This document shows, piece after piece, positions 1-34,205 of a DNA stretch of 34,205 nt. Below the pieces are notes generated by a model that was given only the letters and a program-made list of their open reading frames with translations, made no database searches and was not told the origin of the DNA. Position 1 is the first letter of the stretch. Every line of letters begins with the position of its first letter. The position numbers and the translations under genes are program-made. This DNA is from a virus. The stretch covers positions 1 to 34,205 of IMG/VR virus record IMGVR_UViG_3300045125_000030, one strand, 5' to 3'.

Positions 1-1
1 A

Positions 2-184
2 AAGGTAATTAAAGAAGGTAGTTCAGTTGAAGTTTTAGTTGACCATATGGACGGAATGAAAGGTTCAACTGCAATCATTAGAAGTTATTCGTTACCTGCA
101 AATCTTTCAGATATTACAATGAAAGACGGAATGAAAATGAACAATCACAAGTGGTTAACAAATGACGAAGTTAAATTGAAATAG
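2..184 (+). CDS. 3' end of a DUF1541 (YdhK)-like protein, truncated by window edge
   Basis: The reading frame is open from base 2 to a TAG at 182-184 and has no start in the window. It gives 60 residues. The stretch HMDGMKGS, followed about 30 residues later by NHKWLTNDEV, resembles the repeat unit of DUF1541/YdhK proteins (HMxGMKGAxA...NHKWVTxxE). Those are small, usually secreted or lipid-anchored bacterial proteins of unclear role. This would be a host-type or cargo gene rather than a phage structural gene. It is followed by a tiny Lys-Pro ORF and then an attC-like dyad. The family call comes from motif memory only. Confidence 0.5.
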   Translation, partial: KVIKEGSSVEVLVDHMDGMKGSTAIIRSYSLPANLSDITMKDGMKMNNHKWLTNDEVKLK

Positions 185-235
185 GAGAATCAAAACGCCT
201 TTAAATTTTTGAATAACAATTAAATTAGTAAAGTT

Positions 236-295
236 ATGGGAAAACCAATGACAATGCCAATGAAACCAAAACCGAAGCCAAAGCCTAAAAAGTAA
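236..295 (+). CDS. tiny Lys/Pro-rich peptide (19 aa), doubtful
   Basis: ATG to TAA encodes MGKPMTMPM followed by alternating K and P residues. It lies between the DUF1541-like gene and the first attC-like dyad. There is no clear Shine-Dalgarno sequence, although Bacteroidota often lack one. The KP run is typical of the tail of a longer basic protein, so it may be the end of a frameshifted gene rather than a free peptide. No function is assigned. Confidence 0.25.
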   Translation: MGKPMTMPMKPKPKPKPKK

Positions 296-343
296 CTTCT
301 GTTTTAAAATGTAACCAGTTCTATTCGGTTCTGGTTGCATTTC

Positions 344-407
344 TGCTAACGTTTTGCAGCTTGGCGTTCGGCTGAGGAACGAAGCTGACGCTAAGGTGCT
401 GTTATAT
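344..407 (+). repeat. attC-like dyad element, copy A
   Basis: The element starts TGCTAAC and ends GTTATAT. Internally GCAGCTTGGCGT (357-368 region) can pair with ACGCTAAGGTGC (389-400 region), with one mismatch and one G-T wobble. A smaller hairpin (GTTC...GAAC) lies inside. Bulged inverted repeats bounded by xxxxAAC and GTTxxxx are the known design of integron attC sites (consensus RYYYAAC...GTTRRRY). The outer boxes here deviate from that consensus. Copy B at 2753-2819 is almost identical, with 59 shared positions from TAACG to GTTATA. Confidence 0.55.
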
Positions 408-435
408 GAAGGCGGGATTATTAAAAAAAGTTGAT

Positions 436-2681
436 ATGAAACACGAAACAAAAAATAAAAAAATGCGAAGCGAAGGTCAAACCTAACGGCTTTGAAAAAG
501 CCGACTATTTAAAGTTTCTTGAACAGAAACAAAAATCACATATCCTAAGTGGATTTGATGTTGAAGAAAACGGACTAAACAAATTTATGTTTCCGTTTCA
601 AAAATTCATTGTAAAACGAGCATTGAAAGCTGGTAAGTATGCAATTTTTTGCGGATTGCGGCTTAGGTAAAACATTGATGCAGTTAGAATGGGCAAACCA
701 AGTAAACAAGCAAACTAATAAAACCAGTATTAATACTTGCTCCGCTTGCTGTTGCAGGACAAACAATAAAAGAGGGTGCAAAATTTCACATTGATATTTG
801 GCAAGTATGACGGTTCAAATGCACCGATACAAATTAGCAATTACGAACAACTTGAAAATATTGATTTGCAGTTTGTTTGCCGGGATTGTATTGGATGAAA
901 GTAGCATACTGAAAAACTTTGAAGGTGCAACAAAGAAACTGATTTTAGATTTATTTGCTAAAACACCTTACAAACTTGCTTGCACCGCAACACCAAGCCC
1001 AAACGACCCGATGGAGTTAGGCAATCATTCAGAGTTTTTAGATGTGATGAGCCGTAATGAAATGCTTGCAATGTATTTTGTTCACGATGGCGGAGAAAAC
1101 TGCAAAATGGAGATTGAAAGGACACGCTGGAAAATTGTTTTATCAATTCATTGGGAGTTGGGCTATAATGCTGAACAAACCAAACGATATAGGTTTTGAA
1201 ATGGAAGGGTATCACTTGCCTAAATTGAATTTGATTGAAAAGCAAATTGTAACACCGAAAAAGAGATAACGGCAGTTTGTTCAATGATGCAATAATTTCA
1301 GCGACTAACTTTAATCAGAGTTGCGACTTACAAAAATTCAGCGACTTGATGAAGTGGTTGAAATTGTAAAGCAAAAGCCCGATGAAAATTTTATCATTTG
1401 GATTAAGCAAAATGAGGAAGGCGAAATGCTGAAAAAACTACTGCCAGATGCTAAAGAAGTAAAAAGGAAGCGATAGTAACGAATACAAAGAGAAAACTCT
1501 TTTAGGGTTTGCAAACAATGAATTTAGAATACTGATTACAAAAACAAAAATTGCATCATTCGAATGAACTATCAAAACTGCCGCAATCAGATTTTTGCAA
1601 GTTTGGATTTTTCATTTGAGGGATTGTATCAGTGCGATCCGTAGGAGTTACCGATTTGGGCAAAAGAATGAAGTTGATATTTACTTAATCACAACCGACA
1701 CAATGAGCAATGTAAATGAAGCAATAAACCAAAAAACAAAAACAATTTGAAATTATGCAAGACGAAATGAGCCAAGCGGTAAACGCAAACCTAAACGGCA
1801 AATTAATGAGTAAAGCCGATTTTGATATTACAGAAGAAAAAAACGAATGGTATAAAATTAAACGAGGCGATAGTTGCCAACTTATTACAGAACTTGAAAA
1901 TGAAAGTCGTAGTGGCTTCTGTTTCTCTCCTCCATTCGCAGAACTTTACATACTCCAGTCATTTGGAAGATATGGGCAACAAGTAGACTATAAAGAATTT
2001 TTAATGCAGTTTGGTTACTTGATAAAAGAACTGCACAGAGTAATGAAACAGGGTAGAAATGTTTGTGTGCATTGTATGGACTTGCCTATTCAGAAAGGCA
2101 AAGAAGGGTTTATCGGACTTCGTGATTTTAGCGGAATGATATTGAGGGCTTTTGAAGATGCTGGATTTATTTATGCTTCACGAATTACAATTTGGAAAGA
2201 CCCTGTAATTGAAATGCAACGAACAAAAGCACTTGGATTATTGCACAAGCAAGTGAAGAAAGATAGCACAATGATAGAGTGGGAATACCTGACTATGTAA
2301 TGATTTTTAGAAAGGATGGCGAAAGAACAGATCCGGTTACAAATAATCAAATGAGTGTTGATTTATGGCAGAAAATTGCTTCGCCTGTTTGGATGGATAT
2401 TGATTACGGAAACACATTGCAGGGTTTCAGAAATGGCAGAGAGGAAAATGACGAGAAACATATTTGCCCTTTTGCAACTTGATACGATTGAAAGATTGAT
2501 TTTGCTTTACTCAAATAGAGGTGATACTGTTTTTACTCCGTTTATGGGTATCGGTTCAGAAGTTTATCAGGCAGTAAAAATGGAACGCAAGGGGATAGGA
2601 TTTGAGTTGAAGGAAAGTTATTATGACCTTGCAAAAGCGAATGTTAAAATGGCTGTTCGTACTAAATCAACTTGTCTTTAA
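436..2681 (+). CDS. SNF2-like helicase / beta-class DNA methyltransferase fusion (frameshifted)
   Basis: Joining frames across about a dozen single-base breaks gives one protein of about 750 aa. The first half is a superfamily 2 helicase. Walker A reads CGLGKT (near 655-675) and the Walker B equivalent is VLDESSILKNF (near 890-920). Motif III is TATPSPNDP (near 985-1010), and a motif VI-like RRSYRFGQK lies near 1640-1670. The second half is an amino-methyltransferase with catalytic SPPF (near 1925-1940) first and the SAM-binding motif FTPFMGIGSE (near 2530-2560) last. That order marks a beta-class N4-cytosine or N6-adenine enzyme. Such fusions are known as phage or island self-methylation or restriction-type proteins. 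The start at ATG 436 is followed by a poly-A indel. It sits alone between two attC-like dyads, like a cassette. The breaks could be true decay, but the same error pattern runs through the whole window. Confidence 0.75.
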
Positions 2682-2687
2682 TCTAAT

Positions 2688-2732
2688 GGCTTTGAAAAAA
2701 CCAGCTGCGGTGGGGTATTTTTATTTTGCATT
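2688..2732 (+). terminator. possible weak terminator after the helicase-methyltransferase
   Basis: Directly after the stop at 2681, a short stem (ACC-loop-GGT, with extra G-rich pairing) is followed by TATTTTTATTTT. The stem is short, so this is a weak candidate. Confidence 0.25.
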
Positions 2733-2752
2733 CACGAACGTCCATCACGCCT

Positions 2753-2819
2753 GCATAACGTTTTGCGTGGCTTGGCGTTCGGCTGAGGAACGAAGCTTGA
2801 CGCTAAGGTGCTGTTATAC
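2753..2819 (+). repeat. attC-like dyad element, copy B
   Basis: The element starts GCATAAC and ends GTTATAC, two boxes complementary at six of seven positions. The interior pairs CTTGGCGT with ACGCTAAG, as in copy A. It differs from copy A only by GTG for A after GTTTTGC and by one added T before TGACGC. It lies 3' of the methyltransferase in the same orientation, so the unit 408-2819 has the form gene plus 3' attC, the layout of an integron cassette. Confidence 0.6.
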
Positions 2820-2871
2820 GCTGGGCGGTTTATTAACGATAAAATTAAATAGAATTCGAAAGATCTAAAGA

Positions 2872-3041
2872 TTGTATGAATTTCAGGCAAAACAGATTGA
2901 AGATACATTTCGATTAGTTGCAAGAATATTAGAAAGCCAAGATAATGAAAACGAGTGTTGACAAGAGATGTGATGCAAAGTTGGGAAATGATTAAAAATG
3001 TTTTGGCTGAAAAAATAGATACTCATGTGCCACGAATGTAG
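2872..3041 (+). CDS. small unknown protein, about 57 aa (frameshifted)
   Basis: From TTG 2872 (or an ATG lost to an indel) the frame reads LYEFQAKQIEDTFRL. After a one-base deletion near 2953 it continues TRDVMQSWEMIKNVLAEK to TAG 3039-3041. The amphipathic pattern suggests a small helical protein. It follows copy B of the attC-like dyad by about 50 bases and precedes another half-dyad. I do not recognise a family. The start is uncertain. Confidence 0.45.
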
Positions 3042-3045
3042 CCTT

Positions 3046-3066
3046 GCGTATAACTAGGCTGCTAAC
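3046..3066 (+). repeat. partial attC-like boxes at the left cassette/phage junction
   Basis: GTATAAC at 3048-3054 is the exact reverse complement of the closing box GTTATAC of copy B. TGCTAAC at 3060-3066 repeats the opening box of copy A. No matching closing arm is seen before the next gene, so this is a half site or a degenerate copy. It marks the place where cassette-like DNA ends and phage-like genes begin. Confidence 0.35.
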
Positions 3067-3095
3067 CGCTATAAATACACGCATATACAACAACT

Positions 3096-3394
3096 ATGAT
3101 AACAAATAAAAACAAAACAGACCATTACATTAAGCAAGGTATGGGCAAGTTATTAATTAACTTTTTATCCTCAGGTCTTACCTTTACGATGCTTGTGTTA
3201 AGCTATCTATATCCTATCATATGGGTAAACGTCTTTTAGATTACGAAACACATCATAACCCTGTATCTTACATTAAAAGAGATAAGGAGTTATTATTCTT
3301 AGACGAAATGAGTTACGGTAACGATAGTTTTAGAAACCTATTAATACCTCATTTTGAAGAAAAACAGACTTATACAATAATGTCTAAACTATAA
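3096..3394 (+). CDS. phage-like unknown protein, about 99 aa (frameshifted)
   Basis: ATG 3096 gives MITNKNKTDHYIKQGMGKLL and continues to about 3170. After a one- or two-base indel the frame moves to that of ATG 3221 and runs to TAA 3392-3394 (end YTIMSKL). Read as one protein it is hydrophilic and contains HMGKRLLDYETHHNP and LLFLDEMSYGND. Read separately it would be a 47-aa and a 57-aa ORF. No family is recognised. It is the last plus-strand gene before a terminator shared with the minus-strand operon, so it probably ends the rightward transcript. Confidence 0.45.
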
Positions 3395-3398
3395 ACAA

Positions 3399-3428
3399 AG
3401 CCCCTTTAAATTAGGGGCTATTTTTTTT
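3399..3428. terminator. two-sided rho-independent terminator between convergent arms
   Basis: AGCCCCT (3399-3405) pairs perfectly with AGGGGCT (3413-3419) across a 7-base loop and is followed by eight T on the plus strand. On the minus strand the stem is followed by a looser T-rich stretch. The stop codon of the last minus gene (3411-3413) lies at the edge of the stem. Confidence 0.85.
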
Positions 3429-3724: not shown

Positions 3725-4172
3725 TTATATATTAAAATATTTATTACCCATCATTCTTAAATTTTGTTTACGGTTAGGTCTGCGCCTTGTTAAAGAAACG
3801 TACCCAATCAGGCTCAGTTACCGTTCCATTTTCCCAAATCAACTGATCATAGCTTAAATTAGCTTTAATCCACTCAAACACCTCAGCATTGGTTAAACCT
3901 CCAAACACTTGTGCATCTATATCCATTGCTTCGCCTTGTAAGTGCTGACTGGTTAAACTGCCACCAATGGCACGATTAACAAGTTCAGACCTGTAGAATG
4001 ATGTAACCGCTATTGGCTTGTTAAAATGCGCCCTAAGTGGCTCAAATATATTCTCAGCAAGGTATTTCATATTATCCAAATGTTCGGGTGTAGGCTCATT
4101 GCTTAACCTCATTCTGATAGCTTGTTGGCTCTTAATGGCTTCAGCTAATGTTATATGTTTACTTATATTCAT
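3725..4172 (-). CDS. endolysin, M15-type peptidase (frameshifted near the end)
   Basis: The protein starts MNISKHITLAEAIKSQQA. It carries the peptidase M15_3 pattern: SFYRSELVNRAIGG, then SQHLQGEAMDID (zinc ligands H and D), and a late PDWVR segment. This family cleaves peptide cross-links in peptidoglycan and is a common endolysin of Bacteroidota phages. The annotated frame would stop at 3774. A one-base shift near 3805 gives the expected VSLTRRRPNRKQN tail and a stop at 3725-3727, about 148 aa in all. Family members usually have a W-H-V-S ending; here the H codon is disturbed at the indel. The start overlaps the previous stop (ATGA). Confidence 0.8.
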
Positions 4173-4483
4173 TTGTTTTCTAATCTTTCTAATCTACGTT
4201 CAATATGCTCAAAAATCCTTTTAACATTTCGGCAGAGTTCTTGTTATTTTCTTGAATGCCGCTTATTTTTTCTAAAAGTATTTTGTGATTATTTTCTAAG
4301 TTTATTTTTATGCTCACTCCAATATCGCTTACTTTCAATCTCAACTTTAGTAAGTTCCTTTTTTAAATCCTCAATATCTTTCTGCATCATCTTAATATCT
4401 TTTAAAAATCCCTTAATAAAATACGCCCCAATGGCTAATAAACTGCTCAATGCTAATATTAATATATCTTTGAAGTGGTACAT
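4169..4483 (-). CDS. membrane-anchored coiled-coil protein, spanin- or lysis-associated candidate (frameshifted)
   Basis: One N-terminal transmembrane helix (about residues 7-26, ILALSSLLAIGAYFI) is followed by a charged heptad-like helix (DIKMMQKDIEDLKKELTKVE). The first frame stops at 4289. After an A-run indel the coiled coil continues (LLEKISGIQENNKNSAEM) and ends EHIERRLERLENK at 4169-4171, directly overlapping the endolysin start. A TM-plus-coiled-coil protein of about 105 aa just before the endolysin fits an inner-membrane spanin-like or phage Rz-type role. That role is inferred from shape and position. Confidence 0.5.
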
Positions 4484-4486
4484 AAA

Positions 4487-4663
4487 TTAATGCGCTATAA
4501 CTATTATTTGTGCTTCGGATGGTTTTTCTTTAACGGTTTGTTCATATACTAAAGATAATTGACAATTATACTTTTGTTGAAGTTCTTTTAACTCCAGCAC
4601 AAAGTCATTTATCCTTTGCTGCTTTTCGGCTTCTATTGTTTTTTTGGCTTCTTCAACGGTCAT
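4487..4663 (-). CDS. small helical protein of unknown function (58 aa)
   Basis: MTVEEAKKTIEAEKQQRIND is followed by a hydrophilic helix and a short beta-like end (SEAQIIVIAH). The start overlaps the fibre gene stop (ATGA). Similar short EAEKQQR proteins often follow tail fibre genes in Bacteroidota phages. It could be a fibre chaperone, but nothing in the sequence proves this. Confidence 0.5.
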   Translation of the reverse strand: MTVEEAKKTIEAEKQQRINDFVLELKELQQKYNCQLSLVYEQTVKEKPSEAQIIVIAH

Positions 4664-14088: not shown

Positions 14089-14817
14089 TTATTTATTTTG
14101 TGCCAGTAAAAGTAATTCATCCATTATTTTTAACATCACACTATAAGCATTATCAACCTTTGTAAGTGATTGATTAAACATACCCTCTACGCTAAAGCCT
14201 TTAAATACTCCAGTCTTAATATAAGTATCCCAAATGTCATTATTTTCTACTTTAAAGCTACCAAACCAACTGCCCTGTGGTATATCGCCAAAACCCTCTG
14301 GGGCTTTAATACCTCTGGTGTTATCAATAATAAAACTTTCAAACATATAAACACCATCAATAGTAAATTCAGGATTGTGCATTCCGTTAACAGATGATTG
14401 ATTGCCTTGCTTGAAAAACTTGTTTACTATCTTCTCAATCGTGTCTGGTGTGAATATTACGTTATACTCGCCATTTTGCTCATCTCTGCGATAAATAGGA
14501 GTATTAGCTAACATCAATACACCACTTACTATTCTACGTTCTTTGTCTGTAGTCTGGAAGCCAAATGATTTATTATTAGCAGCATCCCATTTAGCATAAC
14601 AAATGGCTGCTGCCTGATCTGTTTCCTTACCATTGCTAACTTCTACACCTATACATCTGCTTACAAATTCTTCCTGATTTTCGCCCTTTCTTGGCTCAAC
14701 TATAAAATCACTTTTAAATTGTTTCCAGTTCAACTCAATGGCTGGTTTATCTACAAATGCAACAGCAGCTACTCCTGTTTCATCATTCTCATTAATTTCT
14801 AAATAATATGTGTTCAT
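14089..14817 (-). CDS. prohead maturation protease, S78_2/XkdF-like (242 aa)
   Basis: The gene is intact. It begins MNTYYLEINENDETGVAAVA with AFVDKPAIE. The centre carries ERRIVSGVLMLANTPIYRRD and the segment NGMHNPEFTIDGVYMFESFI, with a catalytic-type His in MHN. The C-terminal part is GSWFGSFKVENNDIWDTYIK followed by VFKGFSVEGMF. This is the pattern of XkdF-type prohead proteases (Peptidase_S78_2), serine proteases that trim scaffold and capsid. An ISR-like N-terminal insert (EEFVSRCIGVEVSNGKETDQ) is also seen. The TATACTTAC box lies 4 bases before ATG. Unusually, the gene follows the tail tape measure. Confidence 0.75.
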   Translation of the reverse strand: MNTYYLEINENDETGVAAVAFVDKPAIELNWKQFKSDFIVEPRKGENQEEFVSRCIGVEVSNGKETDQAAAICYAKWDAANNKSFGFQTTDKERRIVSGVLMLANTPIYRRDEQNGEYNVIFTPDTIEKIVNKFFKQGNQSSVNGMHNPEFTIDGVYMFESFIIDNTRGIKAPEGFGDIPQGSWFGSFKVENNDIWDTYIKTGVFKGFSVEGMFNQSLTKVDNAYSVMLKIMDELLLLAQNK

Positions 14818-14821
14818 AATT

Positions 14822-14830
14822 GTAAGTATA
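14822..14830 (-). promoter_or_regulatory. TATACTTAC box before the protease gene
   Basis: TATACTTAC followed by AATT and ATG. The spacing and core match the boxes before genes 11476-11875 and 20861-21579. No terminator separates it from the tape-measure gene, whose stop is at 14835-14837. Confidence 0.45.
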
Positions 14831-14834
14831 ATAT

Positions 14835-16624
14835 TTACATAACTTTTGCTTTTCTTTTAATACCAGCCACTCCATCCTGTGTAGATGTTATATCGGATTC
14901 CAATACATACACCTTAAACTGGCCTTGTTGATTAGCACCCTCGCCACTTTGATTTGATACCCTTTGACCGCTAACATCTGAAGTGAATCCACCAGGCGCA
15001 TTAGTCTGTGGCATATTACTACCTCCAGCTGATGGTATTGCACCTCCTCCACCTAATGTTGGTGTAGATGTACCAGAACTTGAACTGCTTAATATTTGTT
15101 TAGCTTTAGCTATATTAGTTAATATTTGTGCAATTCCTGAAGCAAATTGAGCAATACCAGCACCACCAAAAGTAACTGCATTTGCAGGATTAGCATTAGA
15201 TGCAGCAACTAAAGCAGATATAAGCTTTGGCTGTATCTATACCAATTTGAACTAATGCAGCGGCTTTATTAAATTTTTCTAACTTTTTTGGTCTTTTATA
15301 AAAGCATTTCCTAAAGCTATAAGTCCATTACTTATATCTGTTGCTGCTTGAAGTCGAGCATTTGCTATTGCTATTTCACTATTAAATATTTGTTTATTTC
15401 TTTCAGCAACTATTTCTTTTTGTTTTTCAGCATCAAAGGTTGCTATCTCTATTCTTTTATTGTTAAATGTTGTTATATTTTCTAAACTCTTTTTATTCCT
15501 ATCTTCATCTATTTTTAAAGCATCTTCTTTTATTTGATTTAATCCTTGTTGTCTTTCATACTCTAATTTCAAATTGTTAAAAAAATCAGCAGTTGCCTTT
15601 TCTTCTGCTTTTTTCTTATATCAGATATGGTCTTTTGATGCTGTATTTCTAATATCTGTAACTCTAAATATTTATCCTTATACTCGTTACTTTCTTTTGT
15701 TTTTTGAATTTCTAACAGTTTTAATTCTTCTTCTAAAAGTTTTTTCTTTGCAGCATAACTATCTTTACCCTGTGCTTCAATTAACTTAATTTCTCTTTCA
15801 TGTGTCTTAACCAAACTCTCTAATAACTTTGCTTCTCTTCTTTAGCTTGATTATTATTTTCTTCAATATATGCCTTTGTATAAGCTTCACTCACTCTCTT
15901 ACCAAAAGTTCCAGCTACATCAACTGCTTTACTAAATTCAGCTTTAAAAACATTACCAATAACCTCACCAACTATTTTAAAACTTTCAATAATTGAGCCT
16001 AAACTGCCCATCGCAATTTTCTTTACCCTATCAAATAAATTGCCTAAGCCACCTAAAGCTGGAAATGTTTTATCAATCCATGATATTAATTCTTTCCAAT
16101 TAGATATTAATACACCTACTACAACTGAAAATGCACCTATACCAGTTGCTATTAATGCACCTTTAAGAGTAAATAAAGCCCTTATGCTATTACCTATAGC
16201 ATCTTTTGCTAATCCGAAATATTTACCAAACTCCCTTACTTGGTCAATACCCTGTGCTAATGCGGTGGCAGATTGTACTTTTAATAATGCCTTTTCAACT
16301 TCTTTGCTCTCAGCACCAAAAGAGCCATTGCACCCTGAGCAGCTTGAAAACCACCAGCTATACTTGAAGCTACTCCAGCAATAGTCTGAAATTTCTTGTC
16401 CCGGATCTAATGCCTTAACCTCATCATTAAAATCTTGTAACTGGTCTTTTAATTCAGCAACTTTTTTAGCAGCTTCTTTATATGCCTTTGAACTTGTATC
16501 ACCTGAAGCTACTAATGCCTGTGCTTCTTTAGTTGCTTCTTTTAATTGTTGTTTTAATCCTATTAGCTGATTCTGCTGCTTGACTTGCATCAGCAACTAT
16601 TTTTAAACTTACTTCTTTAGCCAT
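14835..16624 (-). CDS. tail tape measure protein (about 595 aa, frameshifted)
   Basis: It starts MAKEVSLKIVADASQAAES, a usual tape-measure opening. Long helices follow (QQLKEATKEAQALVASGDTS; AYKEAAKKVAELKDQLQDFN). Then comes a membrane-like region (ALFTLKGALIATGIGAFSVV) and an amphipathic helix (LISWIDKTFPALGGLGNLFD). The C-terminal half is coiled coil rich in Lys/Glu (KLLEEELKLLEIQKTKESNE), followed by Ala-rich helices and a Gly/Ser-rich linker ending GIKRKAKVM. Breaks lie near 16555, 16395-16330, 15825, 15600, 15285 and 15225. Its length predicts a fairly short flexible tail. It is the last tail gene before the head genes. Confidence 0.8.
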
Positions 16625-32598: not shown

Positions 32599-32818
32599 AT
32601 GACAATAGACTTCAAAAGGGCATCGCTTAGATATAGATGCCGAAATAACCAAAGACTTCAGCACATACGATACACCAACAAGGGCTACGGAGTGCGATAT
32701 ACAAGCTATTCAATATAACGGTGTGGAGGTTACAGACTTATTACTTGACCTTTTAAGCGTAAATGATTATATTAACTTACAAGAACTAATTATAAAAGAG
32801 TATGAAAACAACGTATAA
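32599..32818 (+). CDS. about 72-aa unknown protein (one frameshift)
   Basis: MTIDF, then after an indel near 32620 HRLDIDAEITKDFSTYDTPT followed by ATECDIQAIQYNGVEVTDLL and a helix NDYINLQELIIKEYENNV. Acidic; TAA at 32816-32818 overlaps the next start by 17 bases. A conserved look (strand-rich then helix) but no known family. Confidence 0.5.
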
Positions 32819-33012
32819 CAAACTATTCAGAGCAATAGCAAATCTAATAGACCGCATTGTATATGCGGCACAAATGTTTCCTACCAGAAACCCCACAAGT
32901 CCAAATTGGCTTTATAGTCATCGGATAAGCTTCAACTGCATATCCAGATGGCACCAGGTATGAGTATTTAAACGGATGTCATATCAGTCAGATTAAACGC
33001 AAAAGGTTGTAG
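32802..33012 (+). CDS. unknown protein, last gene before the right cassette-like DNA (frameshifted)
   Basis: MKTTYNKLFRAIANLIDRIV starts the gene. One frame runs on to a stop at 32963. A better-looking continuation is FLPETPQVQIGFIVIG then ASTAYPDGTRYEYLNG and CHISQIKRKRL, ending TAG 33010-33012, but it needs two indels. The attC-like element starts immediately after this stop. No function. Confidence 0.4.
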
Positions 33013-33014
33013 GG

Positions 33015-33197
33015 TAACGTTCGGGCGGTTGGCGCAGTGCGTATTATTAACAACTAAAAATTATTAGAATGACAACATGATGAAATTTTGAAAAAACACG
33101 AAGATGAAAACGAATATCACTTGCACGAAGTTGATAGAAAATGGGTAATTGCCGCTATGGAAGAGTATGCAGCATTGCGCCAACCGCTTGTTATGCG
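33015..33197 (+). repeat. attC-like long inverted repeat, element C
   Basis: GCGGTTGGCGCAGTGC (33025-33040) pairs with GCATTGCGCCAACCGC (33172-33187) at 15 of 16 positions. Outside the arms are TAAC (33015-33018) and GTTA (33189-33192). The 131-base loop holds the start and first third of the zinc-ribbon gene, so the right arm is coding. Confidence 0.5.
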
Positions 33198-33294
33198 TGC
33201 GTTTACCGCCTGTCCGAGCTGTGGAAGCGATAAGATATACTTTGAAAGTTGGTGGACTTGTCGAGAATGTACGCATGATTGGGGCGGTAAATGA
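33069..33294 (+). CDS. zinc-ribbon protein, about 75 aa (frameshift at start)
   Basis: ATG 33069 leads, after an indel, into HDEILKKHEDENEYHLHEVD, RKWVIAAMEEYAALRQP and a zinc ribbon CPSCGS...CRECTHDW, with two CxxC knuckles 16 residues apart. Small ribbons of this kind bind zinc and often nucleic acid or protein. It lies between dyads C and D, and dyad D opens right after its stop (TGATGCATAAC). The family is not recognised; the start may instead be TTG 33088. Confidence 0.6.
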
Positions 33295-33295
33295 T

Positions 33296-33427
33296 GCATA
33301 ACGTGCTGATGCTATACGAAGGCGGGGGAATAGATGCACACCTTGTCAGCCTTGCACAAATGACAAATAGTAGCACAACTGTTCAATTGCGGAATGCTGC
33401 CCCGCTTTTGTATAGCATTTGTTGGCA
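33296..33427 (+). repeat. attC-like long inverted repeat, element D
   Basis: ATGCTATACGAAGGCGGG (33309-33326) pairs with CCCGCTTTTGTATAGCAT (33401-33418), 16 of 18 positions by strict pairing. The outer boxes are GCATAAC (33296-33302) and GTTGGCA (33421-33427). No gene is seen in the 74-base loop. The total of 132 bases is similar in size to long attC sites such as the Vibrio VCR type. Confidence 0.55.
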
Positions 33428-33447
33428 GCAGTTAATTTTAAACGAAT

Positions 33448-33842
33448 ATGTCACAAAATGGAATGGGCGTTATGCTCGGAATCTTGGGAGGAAATGAAGA
33501 AACTGTAAATACAGTAAAAAGCTCCTTGAACAAAACGATTGAAAAAGTTTGGCTTGATGAAGAAACTAATAGGCTAAACTTCAAATTTACAGACGGTACA
33601 GGAATGTATTTGCTTGATGATGGACAAAGCTGCTGCGAACATAGATATATGGTAACGGCTGATGATTTGACTGAATATGCTGATGCCAAACTTTTGGATT
33701 TGGAACTGAAAGATGCTCCCTGACCAAGAAGGACGAAGATGGAGAAGTTCACGAAATACAATTTTTAGATGTAAAAACTGATAAAGGAGTATTTCAAATG
33801 GCAAACCACAACGAGCATAACGGATATTATGGAGGATTTTAG
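33448..33842 (+). CDS. DUF7448-like protein, about 131 aa (one frameshift)
   Basis: MSQNGMGVMLGILGGNEETV, then EKVWLDEETNRLNFKFTDGT, LLDDGQSCCEHRYMVTADDL and AKLLDLELKDAP. After an indel near 33720 the frame gives GEVHEIQFLDVKTDKGVFQM and NEHNGYYGGF. FxDGTGxxLxDDGQSCCExRYM and the closing THNEHNGYYGGF are the marks of the DUF7448 family, found on phages and mobile DNA; function unknown. It sits between dyads D and E like a cassette. Confidence 0.7.
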
Positions 33843-33868
33843 GTTAGTAGCACGTCCACTTTAATTGC

Positions 33869-33959
33869 TGCCAACGGTTGCGTATATGAGAGGTACGCCA
33901 CCGAGATTATGAACTGAAAAAAATAAGCTTCTGCGTATCTCTTATATACGTTGTTAGCA
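33869..33959 (+). repeat. attC-like inverted repeat, element E
   Basis: Outer boxes are TGCCAAC (33869-33875) and GTTAGCA (33953-33959), complementary at six of seven positions. The inner arms CGTATATGAGAGGTACGC (33881-33898) and GCGTATCTCTTATATACG (33933-33950) match at 16 of 18. A 34-base loop lies between. At 91 bases this is the cleanest attC-like element in the window. Confidence 0.65.
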
Positions 33960-33996
33960 GTAGTGTTTTAAATATTAACAATTAAATTTTATAAAA

Positions 33997-34205
33997 ATGG
34001 CAAAAGAAACCAGCAAACAAAAACTTGCAAACTTAATTCAAAGCTACCAACAAGTAGTGAAATGCGCACAATCTCTTTATGACGATACCGATTTTAAAGA
34101 TTGGGCTGTTAATTTATCTCTTAAAGCTCAAGACGACATTAAAGAAGTTAAGAAAAATTAAAAGATAAATTTTCTATTGATTATGATACTGATACTGCAA
34201 AATCA
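33997..34205 (+). CDS. small unknown protein, runs off the window (frameshifted)
   Basis: MAKETSKQKLANLIQSYQQV, then KCAQSLYDDTDFKDWAVNLS and a helical end. One frame stops at 34159-34161. After an A-run indel the frame stays open (EKLKDKFSIDYDTDTAKS) to the last base. It follows element E by 37 bases. No family is recognised. The start of the window does not continue this protein in an obvious way. Confidence 0.5.

Follow-up and report, generated by a model that had tools for sequence, protein, structure and literature searches.

A probable trans-exchanged integron-type cassette array in a circular Bacteroidota phage genome, and candidate integrases without the I2 insertion

Sedentary chromosomal integrons consist of an integrase gene (IntI), an attI site and gene-attC cassettes. 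The I2 helix has been reported as the feature that gives integron integrases single-strand recombination (PMC7790495), and one survey that required I2 found few complete integrons in Bacteroidetes (PMC9024848). Integron sites in phages are already known. Qi et al. 2023 described CALINs, clusters of attC sites without an integrase, in virulent phages; these attCs were recombinogenic with IntI1 in the laboratory, DNA methylases were noted among the cargo, and illegitimate recombination at the array borders was proposed (PMC9892861). The locus described here is like the CALINs in having integrase-free attC cassettes in tailed phages, which for the CALINs include a Flavobacteriia phage, and in carrying a DNA methylase. 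Unlike the CALINs, it belongs to a phage lineage with fixed docking sites and repeated independent insertions, for which there is a matching host attI and integrase family without I2, its genes have inverted polarity, and its kind is apparently abundant in Bacteroidota phages. The wider system, Bacteroidota genomes and related phages included, shares with sedentary chromosomal integrons the R'/R'' grammar, the G|TT crossover point, hairpin attCs with one better-folding strand, and, in Bacteroidota genomes, an attI beside a tyrosine integrase. It departs from them in that the candidate integrase has no I2 insertion, its gene in chromosomes has the attI at the 3' end, and the phage cassette genes face attI. 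The I2-less integrase and the inverted phage cassettes look new relative to the journal papers found.

The DNA we analysed (the window) is a stretch of 34,205 bases that makes up one entire IMG/VR virus record. Its right end codes for MAKETSK...DTDTAKS and its left end for KVIKEGSSVEVL..., part of a DUF1541 protein. Both halves occur as one uninterrupted ORF in virus contig L325 (3909-4301), which encodes a 131-aa protein in a single cassette. Once joined, the ends of the window match L325 across the junction at 77% identity over 539 bp, with one extra base, and the left-end half is 95% identical to L325 over 60 aa. Since the split gene is whole in L325 and the box at site E matches the box at site A across the contig ends, the record is a circle whose linear form begins and ends within cassette E. 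The two end clusters of attC-type sites (A and B; C, D and E) therefore form a single array, which runs from 33019 to 34205 and then from 1 to 3054 (4,241 bp) and holds five cassettes in the order C, D, E, A, B. It lies in the + strand early-gene cluster of the phage. The features are as follows.

33015 to 33193, + strand: attC-type site C, with R'' TAAC at 33015-33018 and R' GTTATGC from 33190
33025-33040 and 33172-33187, + strand: arms of site C, 94% complementary, enclosing a long loop that holds the start of a 68-aa ORF
33018|33019: border between phage and array, at site C
33088 to 33294, + strand: gene of cassette C, a 68-aa Cys-rich ORF (CPSC..CREC)
33299 to 33424, + strand: attC-type site D; its R' GTTGGCAGCA complements the R'' of E
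33448 to 33723, + strand: gene of cassette D, DUF7448 family (PF24240, 4.8e-6 and 6.9e-5 in two frames)
33872 to 33956, + strand: attC-type site E; its R' GTTAGCAG complements the R'' of A across the ends
33998 to 34205, + strand: 5' half of the cassette E gene (MAKETSK...), which resumes at position 1
1 to 184, + strand: 3' half of the cassette E gene (DUF1541, PF07563, 1.6e-7)
347 to 404, + strand: attC-type site A (covariance model, 80.8 bits as a training sequence)
798 to 2682, + strand: gene or genes of cassette A, split by frameshifts, with a helicase-like N part named by eye
about 1926-2636, + strand: N6_N4_Mtase DNA methylase of cassette A (PF01555, 1.1e-15)
2756 to 2816, + strand: attC-type site B; its R' GTTATACGC complements the docking R''
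3046 to 3054, + strand: last R'' (GCGTATAAC), a 9-nt complement of the R' of B
3054|3055: border between array and phage, after the last R''
3055 to 3096, + strand: phage-side docking half-site (attI-like), TAGGCTGCTAACCGCTATAAATACACGCATATACAAC, sharing CCGCTATAAATACACGCWTATACAAC with the L081/L096 docking site
3055 to 33018 (about 29.96 kb), mostly - strand: phage body with tailed-phage genes and no integrase

Sites A and B have the form TAAC-GNTTTGCAG-arm...arm-GTGCTGTTA, which C, D and E show in a longer and diverged form. The original prediction, which described C, D and E as attC-like dyads directly behind phage genes, located real elements, whose limits are refined here to run from TAAC or CAAC through the end of GTTN. 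It placed the array at 33013-34205; an array is there, but it continues past the contig end into 1-3054. The proposed gene-plus-attC units are cassettes, but in them the attC comes first and the gene second, and the border between phage and array falls at 33018|33019. D and E each adjoin a small gene, as claimed, but C overlaps its ORF, which starts in the attC loop and runs through the 3' arm and R'. That both ends form one array, that the genes are inverted, and that an integrase family exists in Bacteroidota chromosomes, plasmids and some phages had been overlooked. The cassette D gene also matches phrog_2650 (6.7e-5) and probably extends to about 33840 in another frame. The cassette A gene or genes share 66-72% amino acid identity with cassettes in L256 and L296.

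The phage body encodes an M15 endolysin (3774-4172), a portal protein, an XkdF-type protease, DUF3310 and DUF5906 proteins, and a large terminase at about 24.2-25.3 kb, whose relatives among isolates are Flavobacterium, Polaribacter and Bacteroides phages. A six-frame search found no tyrosine integrase in the window, as had been stated from the sequence alone, and none was found in the 16 nearest related records searched. The assembly is indel-rich over the whole window (1-34205), with the terminase, portal, methylase and other genes in frame-shifted pieces; these broken frames look like uncorrected long reads.

In integrons, the R'' of an attC complements the R' at the start of the same cassette, and hence each R' in an array matches the next R''. 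This grammar is present in the window. The R' of C (GTTATGC) pairs with the R'' of D (GCATAAC) over 7 nt, that of D with the R'' of E (TGCTGCCAAC) over 10 nt, that of E with the R'' of A (CTGCTAAC) over 8 nt across the contig ends, and that of B with the junction box at 3046-3054 over 9 nt. The match from A to B is weak, at 5 nt only. A Rfam search, with no attC family in that database, gave nothing relevant. Several sites escaped an ad hoc scan for arms, and we used a covariance model together with the R'/R'' link rule instead. The model (R1) was built here from short sites of the A/B type; it scores A and B strongly, both being in its training set, and finds weaker independent sites in relatives. 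Single-stranded DNA folding of the + strand gave z values of -3.35 (A), -1.80 (B), -2.10 (D) and -4.31 (E). Folding of the bottom strand had been suggested as a check, and the hairpins are stable, but the + strand outfolds the - strand at each of these four sites. The gene-sense strand also outfolds its opposite in 124 of 125 viral sites, which fits the gene-sense strand as the recombining one. In Polaribacter phage P12002L, one convincing box link (14503-15197) stands among chance ones.

We compared the array with those of related phages, in which the terminase is 91-92% identical. L092 to L096 carry insertions at one identical nucleotide, GGGTTGTAAC|cassettes...AAC|TTGTTTATTGCCGC, and their cassettes all differ: one each in L093, L094 and L095, two in L096 and at least four in L092. 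L097 holds three cassettes at GGATAAC|...AAC|TAATATATAACCGC. Both L097 and the window use other positions of the same operon than L092-L096. Phage genes border the array of relatives on either side, and their order matches. The docking site of the window lies one gene further along and has the 26-nt element CCGCTATAAATACACGCWTATACAAC in common with the L094 type. Arrays thus occur at three positions of one early operon (window 32800-33018 and 3055-3400; L094; L097), and the docking element is common to two of the three, as if the docking site had moved. HNH and GIY-YIG-like ORFs are inserted near the docking site in relatives (L094, 5225-5690 region; L097, 2890-3470). Neither the exact attP-like joint nor the predicted empty docking site had a match in IMG/VR.

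Single units come and go exactly. L241 and L244 have flanks that are 100% identical, and L244 has one extra 748-bp unit bordered by G|TTACCGGC...attC...G|TTACC; the difference is a clean gain or loss of a single cassette. Gain or loss at G|TT (AA|C on the gene strand) is seen in relatives and not in the window itself. We searched for this attC type with the pattern TAACGNTTTGCAGN{20,50}GTGCTGTTA, the counts from these collection scans being lower bounds. Genome contigs totalling 257 Gb gave 11 loci, of which 9 are in Bacteroidota, and viral contigs in IMG/VR gave at least 119 stretches. In 109 of 118 new viral loci we found 230 distinct linked cassettes. Some cassettes are common to otherwise different contigs; one of 544 bp is shared at 94% identity by a 170-kb contig (L240) and far smaller phage contigs. 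These comparisons bear out the suggestion that mobile attC cassettes are joined to phage DNA: the R'/R'' chain links the units, cassettes vary at one nucleotide in relatives, and the same cassettes turn up in unrelated contigs. Neither outcome named beforehand as refuting the suggestion occurred, with model R1 in the place of an attC model, and the genes do not keep to one order.

A candidate integrase family was identified in Bacteroidota. Among the nine Bacteroidota genomes with this attC type, none had a match above the cut-off to TIGR02249, the model of canonical integron integrases. In one of them, L131, a tyrosine recombinase of 382 aa adjoins the end of an array, and 20 of 198 Bacteroidota genomes contain proteins at least 50% identical to it. 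In 20 of 23 loci an AAC|TTGTTTATATGCGC-like (AAC|T.GTTTATATGCGC-like) site follows the integrase stop codon at a distance of 70-106 bp. A complement of the attI-side R'' 9-mer was present upstream in 15 of the 18 loci that could be tested; mismatched locus pairs, which served as a chance control, gave 5 of 298. This attI is conserved. KDR and H.LRHS are separated by 58-59 residues in these enzymes. Their match to the integron-integrase profile breaks at positions 178-238, and that to the solved integron integrase 2a3v breaks likewise, indicating that the candidate enzymes lack the I2 insertion; candidate host and phage integrases are alike in lacking this additional domain. The best curated family for the chromosomal enzyme is NCBIfam NF040815 (recomb_XerA_Arch, "site-specific tyrosine recombinase/integron integrase"), which it matches at 223.5 bits, just above the cut-off of 220, while the viral enzymes fall below it; NF040815 is a naming model and provides no evidence for attC recombination. 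A plasmid of Chryseobacterium sp. SNU WT5, with integrase WP_143853951.1, holds a complete system of this kind, and in C. oryzae the same attI adjoins another first cassette. An I2-less enzyme acting on these hairpins is unexpected given the reported role of the I2 helix (PMC7790495).

Junctions of related phages resemble this chromosomal attI. With a motif built from chromosomal attIs only, the junction comes first among 14-20 thousand positions in L093, L094, L095 and L097, and second in L096. The window junction as sequenced ranks 1817 with the same motif, and 220 of 516 with a motif from viral docking sites. With one base removed it scores 12.5, equal to the best site in the window, and it fits the viral docking class TANNGCTAANCGC only if that base is a spurious insertion. 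This class includes TATTGGCTAAACGCTAT in L233 and TACCGGCTAACCG in L219. The fit of its junction to attI is the weakest link for the window itself.

Some phages encode integrases of their own. Integrases of 251-279 aa are present in 7 of the 118 pattern-fetched viral loci and in L153. These 8 enzymes cluster in a single clade (99/97) that falls among the integron integrases, with XerC/D-like proteins split off (100/100). Rows XER_L118 to L121 of the tree repeat integron integrases under a wrong label, and the group change counts there were disregarded. In L213, L227, L296, L303 and L153 a box-linked array runs into AAC|attI and then the integrase gene, indicating that some phages carry complete integrons. 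L227 and L303 are identical in integrase and junction. The window phage has cassettes and a docking site only. L224 contains a gene-less mini cassette (GTTATGGCATCGTTTTAATGTGCCATAAC) at about 4470-4550, between the last attC and the viral attI and integrase. L153 is a 109-kb contig of a Bacteroidales MAG in which an array of about 10 kb ends at an integrase of the viral clade; it may represent a large phage and not a chromosome.

Host and phage cassettes differ in gene polarity. With orientation called automatically from the longest ORF, chromosomal cassette genes face away from attI (36:2) and viral ones toward it (219:7), whereas the attC sequences have the same polarity relative to attI in both. 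The opposite gene polarity indicates that the phage cassettes are a distinct pool, not host arrays acquired by chance. In 62 of 219 cases, the viral ORF begins inside the attC loop and reads through R'. The cargo includes DNA methylases (the window; MT-A70 in L092), a PAPS-reductase-like protein (L095) and the small phage families phrog_10066 and phrog_23161.

We consider it very likely that the window is the complete circular (or circularly permuted) 34.2-kb genome of a Bacteroidota tailed phage whose five-cassette integron-type array is exchanged in trans. The enzyme, the strand and the timing of this exchange are what we infer. Action in trans is proposed because the window phage encodes no integrase, and the candidate enzyme is assigned by motif similarity because none was found in the record or in the 16 nearest records searched. 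An I2-less integrase from a host integron or from a co-infecting, integrase-bearing phage would act during infection, folding the gene-sense attC strand into a hairpin and cutting it at AA|C. The cassette would then be joined either to the docking site of the phage or to a different attC. Facing attI, the genes could be read from phage promoters upstream of the array, which would serve as an exchangeable slot for small phage genes, DNA methylases among them. The methylases plausibly counter host restriction. We also think it likely that a separate Bacteroidota integron lineage without the I2 helix exists together with an exchange network dedicated to phages, with its own docking sites, its own integrase clade and inverted cassettes that often start inside attC.

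Our initial reading was that the phage is a prophage in one attC of a bacterial integron, with 1-3054 and 33019-34205 as bacterial flanks. Taking the phage out would indeed restore attC C in good form (GCGTATAAC|GTTCGGGCGG...), with cassettes in both flanks. We dropped this model because the arrays of relatives have phage genes on both sides in matching order and because the circle closes, the window ends being halves of one gene across which box E fits box A. The lack of a phage integrase and the viral rather than chromosomal polarity of the cassette genes also argue against a prophage, which we regard as very unlikely. The dyads might instead be simple terminators or RNA structures that separate a fixed set of small phage genes, given that they sit between genes and fold stably. 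No T-run follows the arms, however, neighbouring R' and R'' boxes are complementary, and reading frames cross the 3' arm, with many viral ORFs starting inside attC. Different genes at one nucleotide in relatives and the exact one-cassette difference between contigs rule this reading out, leaving it only the slightest probability.

Two further explanations accept the cassettes and differ in how they move. They could be relics of homologous or illegitimate recombination with host integrons that are immobile as units, a route that PMC9892861 offers for other phages; the window has no integrase, and the sequence obtained for its docking site is degenerate. Against such relics, otherwise identical contigs differ by a single cassette, several independent insertions share one nucleotide, and a polarity opposite to that of host cassettes excludes simple import of a host array. 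We judge this explanation quite improbable. A canonical I2-bearing IntI could also move the cassettes in place of the I2-less family, as attCs of a Polaribacter phage recombine with IntI1 in E. coli (PMC9892861). This is unlikely: TIGR02249 is absent above the cut-off from all nine Bacteroidota genomes with this attC type, and in chromosomes, a plasmid and phages it is the I2-less enzyme that has attI and arrays beside it.

If exchange in trans is correct, phages own a site-specific means of exchanging small genes one at a time, DNA methylases and PAPS-reductase-like genes among them, in place of random mosaicism. It would give anti-defence genes a direct route between unrelated phages. It would also challenge the view that the I2 helix enables recombination of single-stranded attC (PMC7790495), and integron surveys that require I2 would miss these integrases. 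Very large viral contigs, L254 (246-kb) and L240 (170-kb), carry the same attC type, and L254 also carries an integrase. The array region of the Chryseobacterium sp. SNU WT5 plasmid (L329, 13272-17054) contains an IS110-family transposase and a group II intron, which resemble attC-targeting elements in other integrons.
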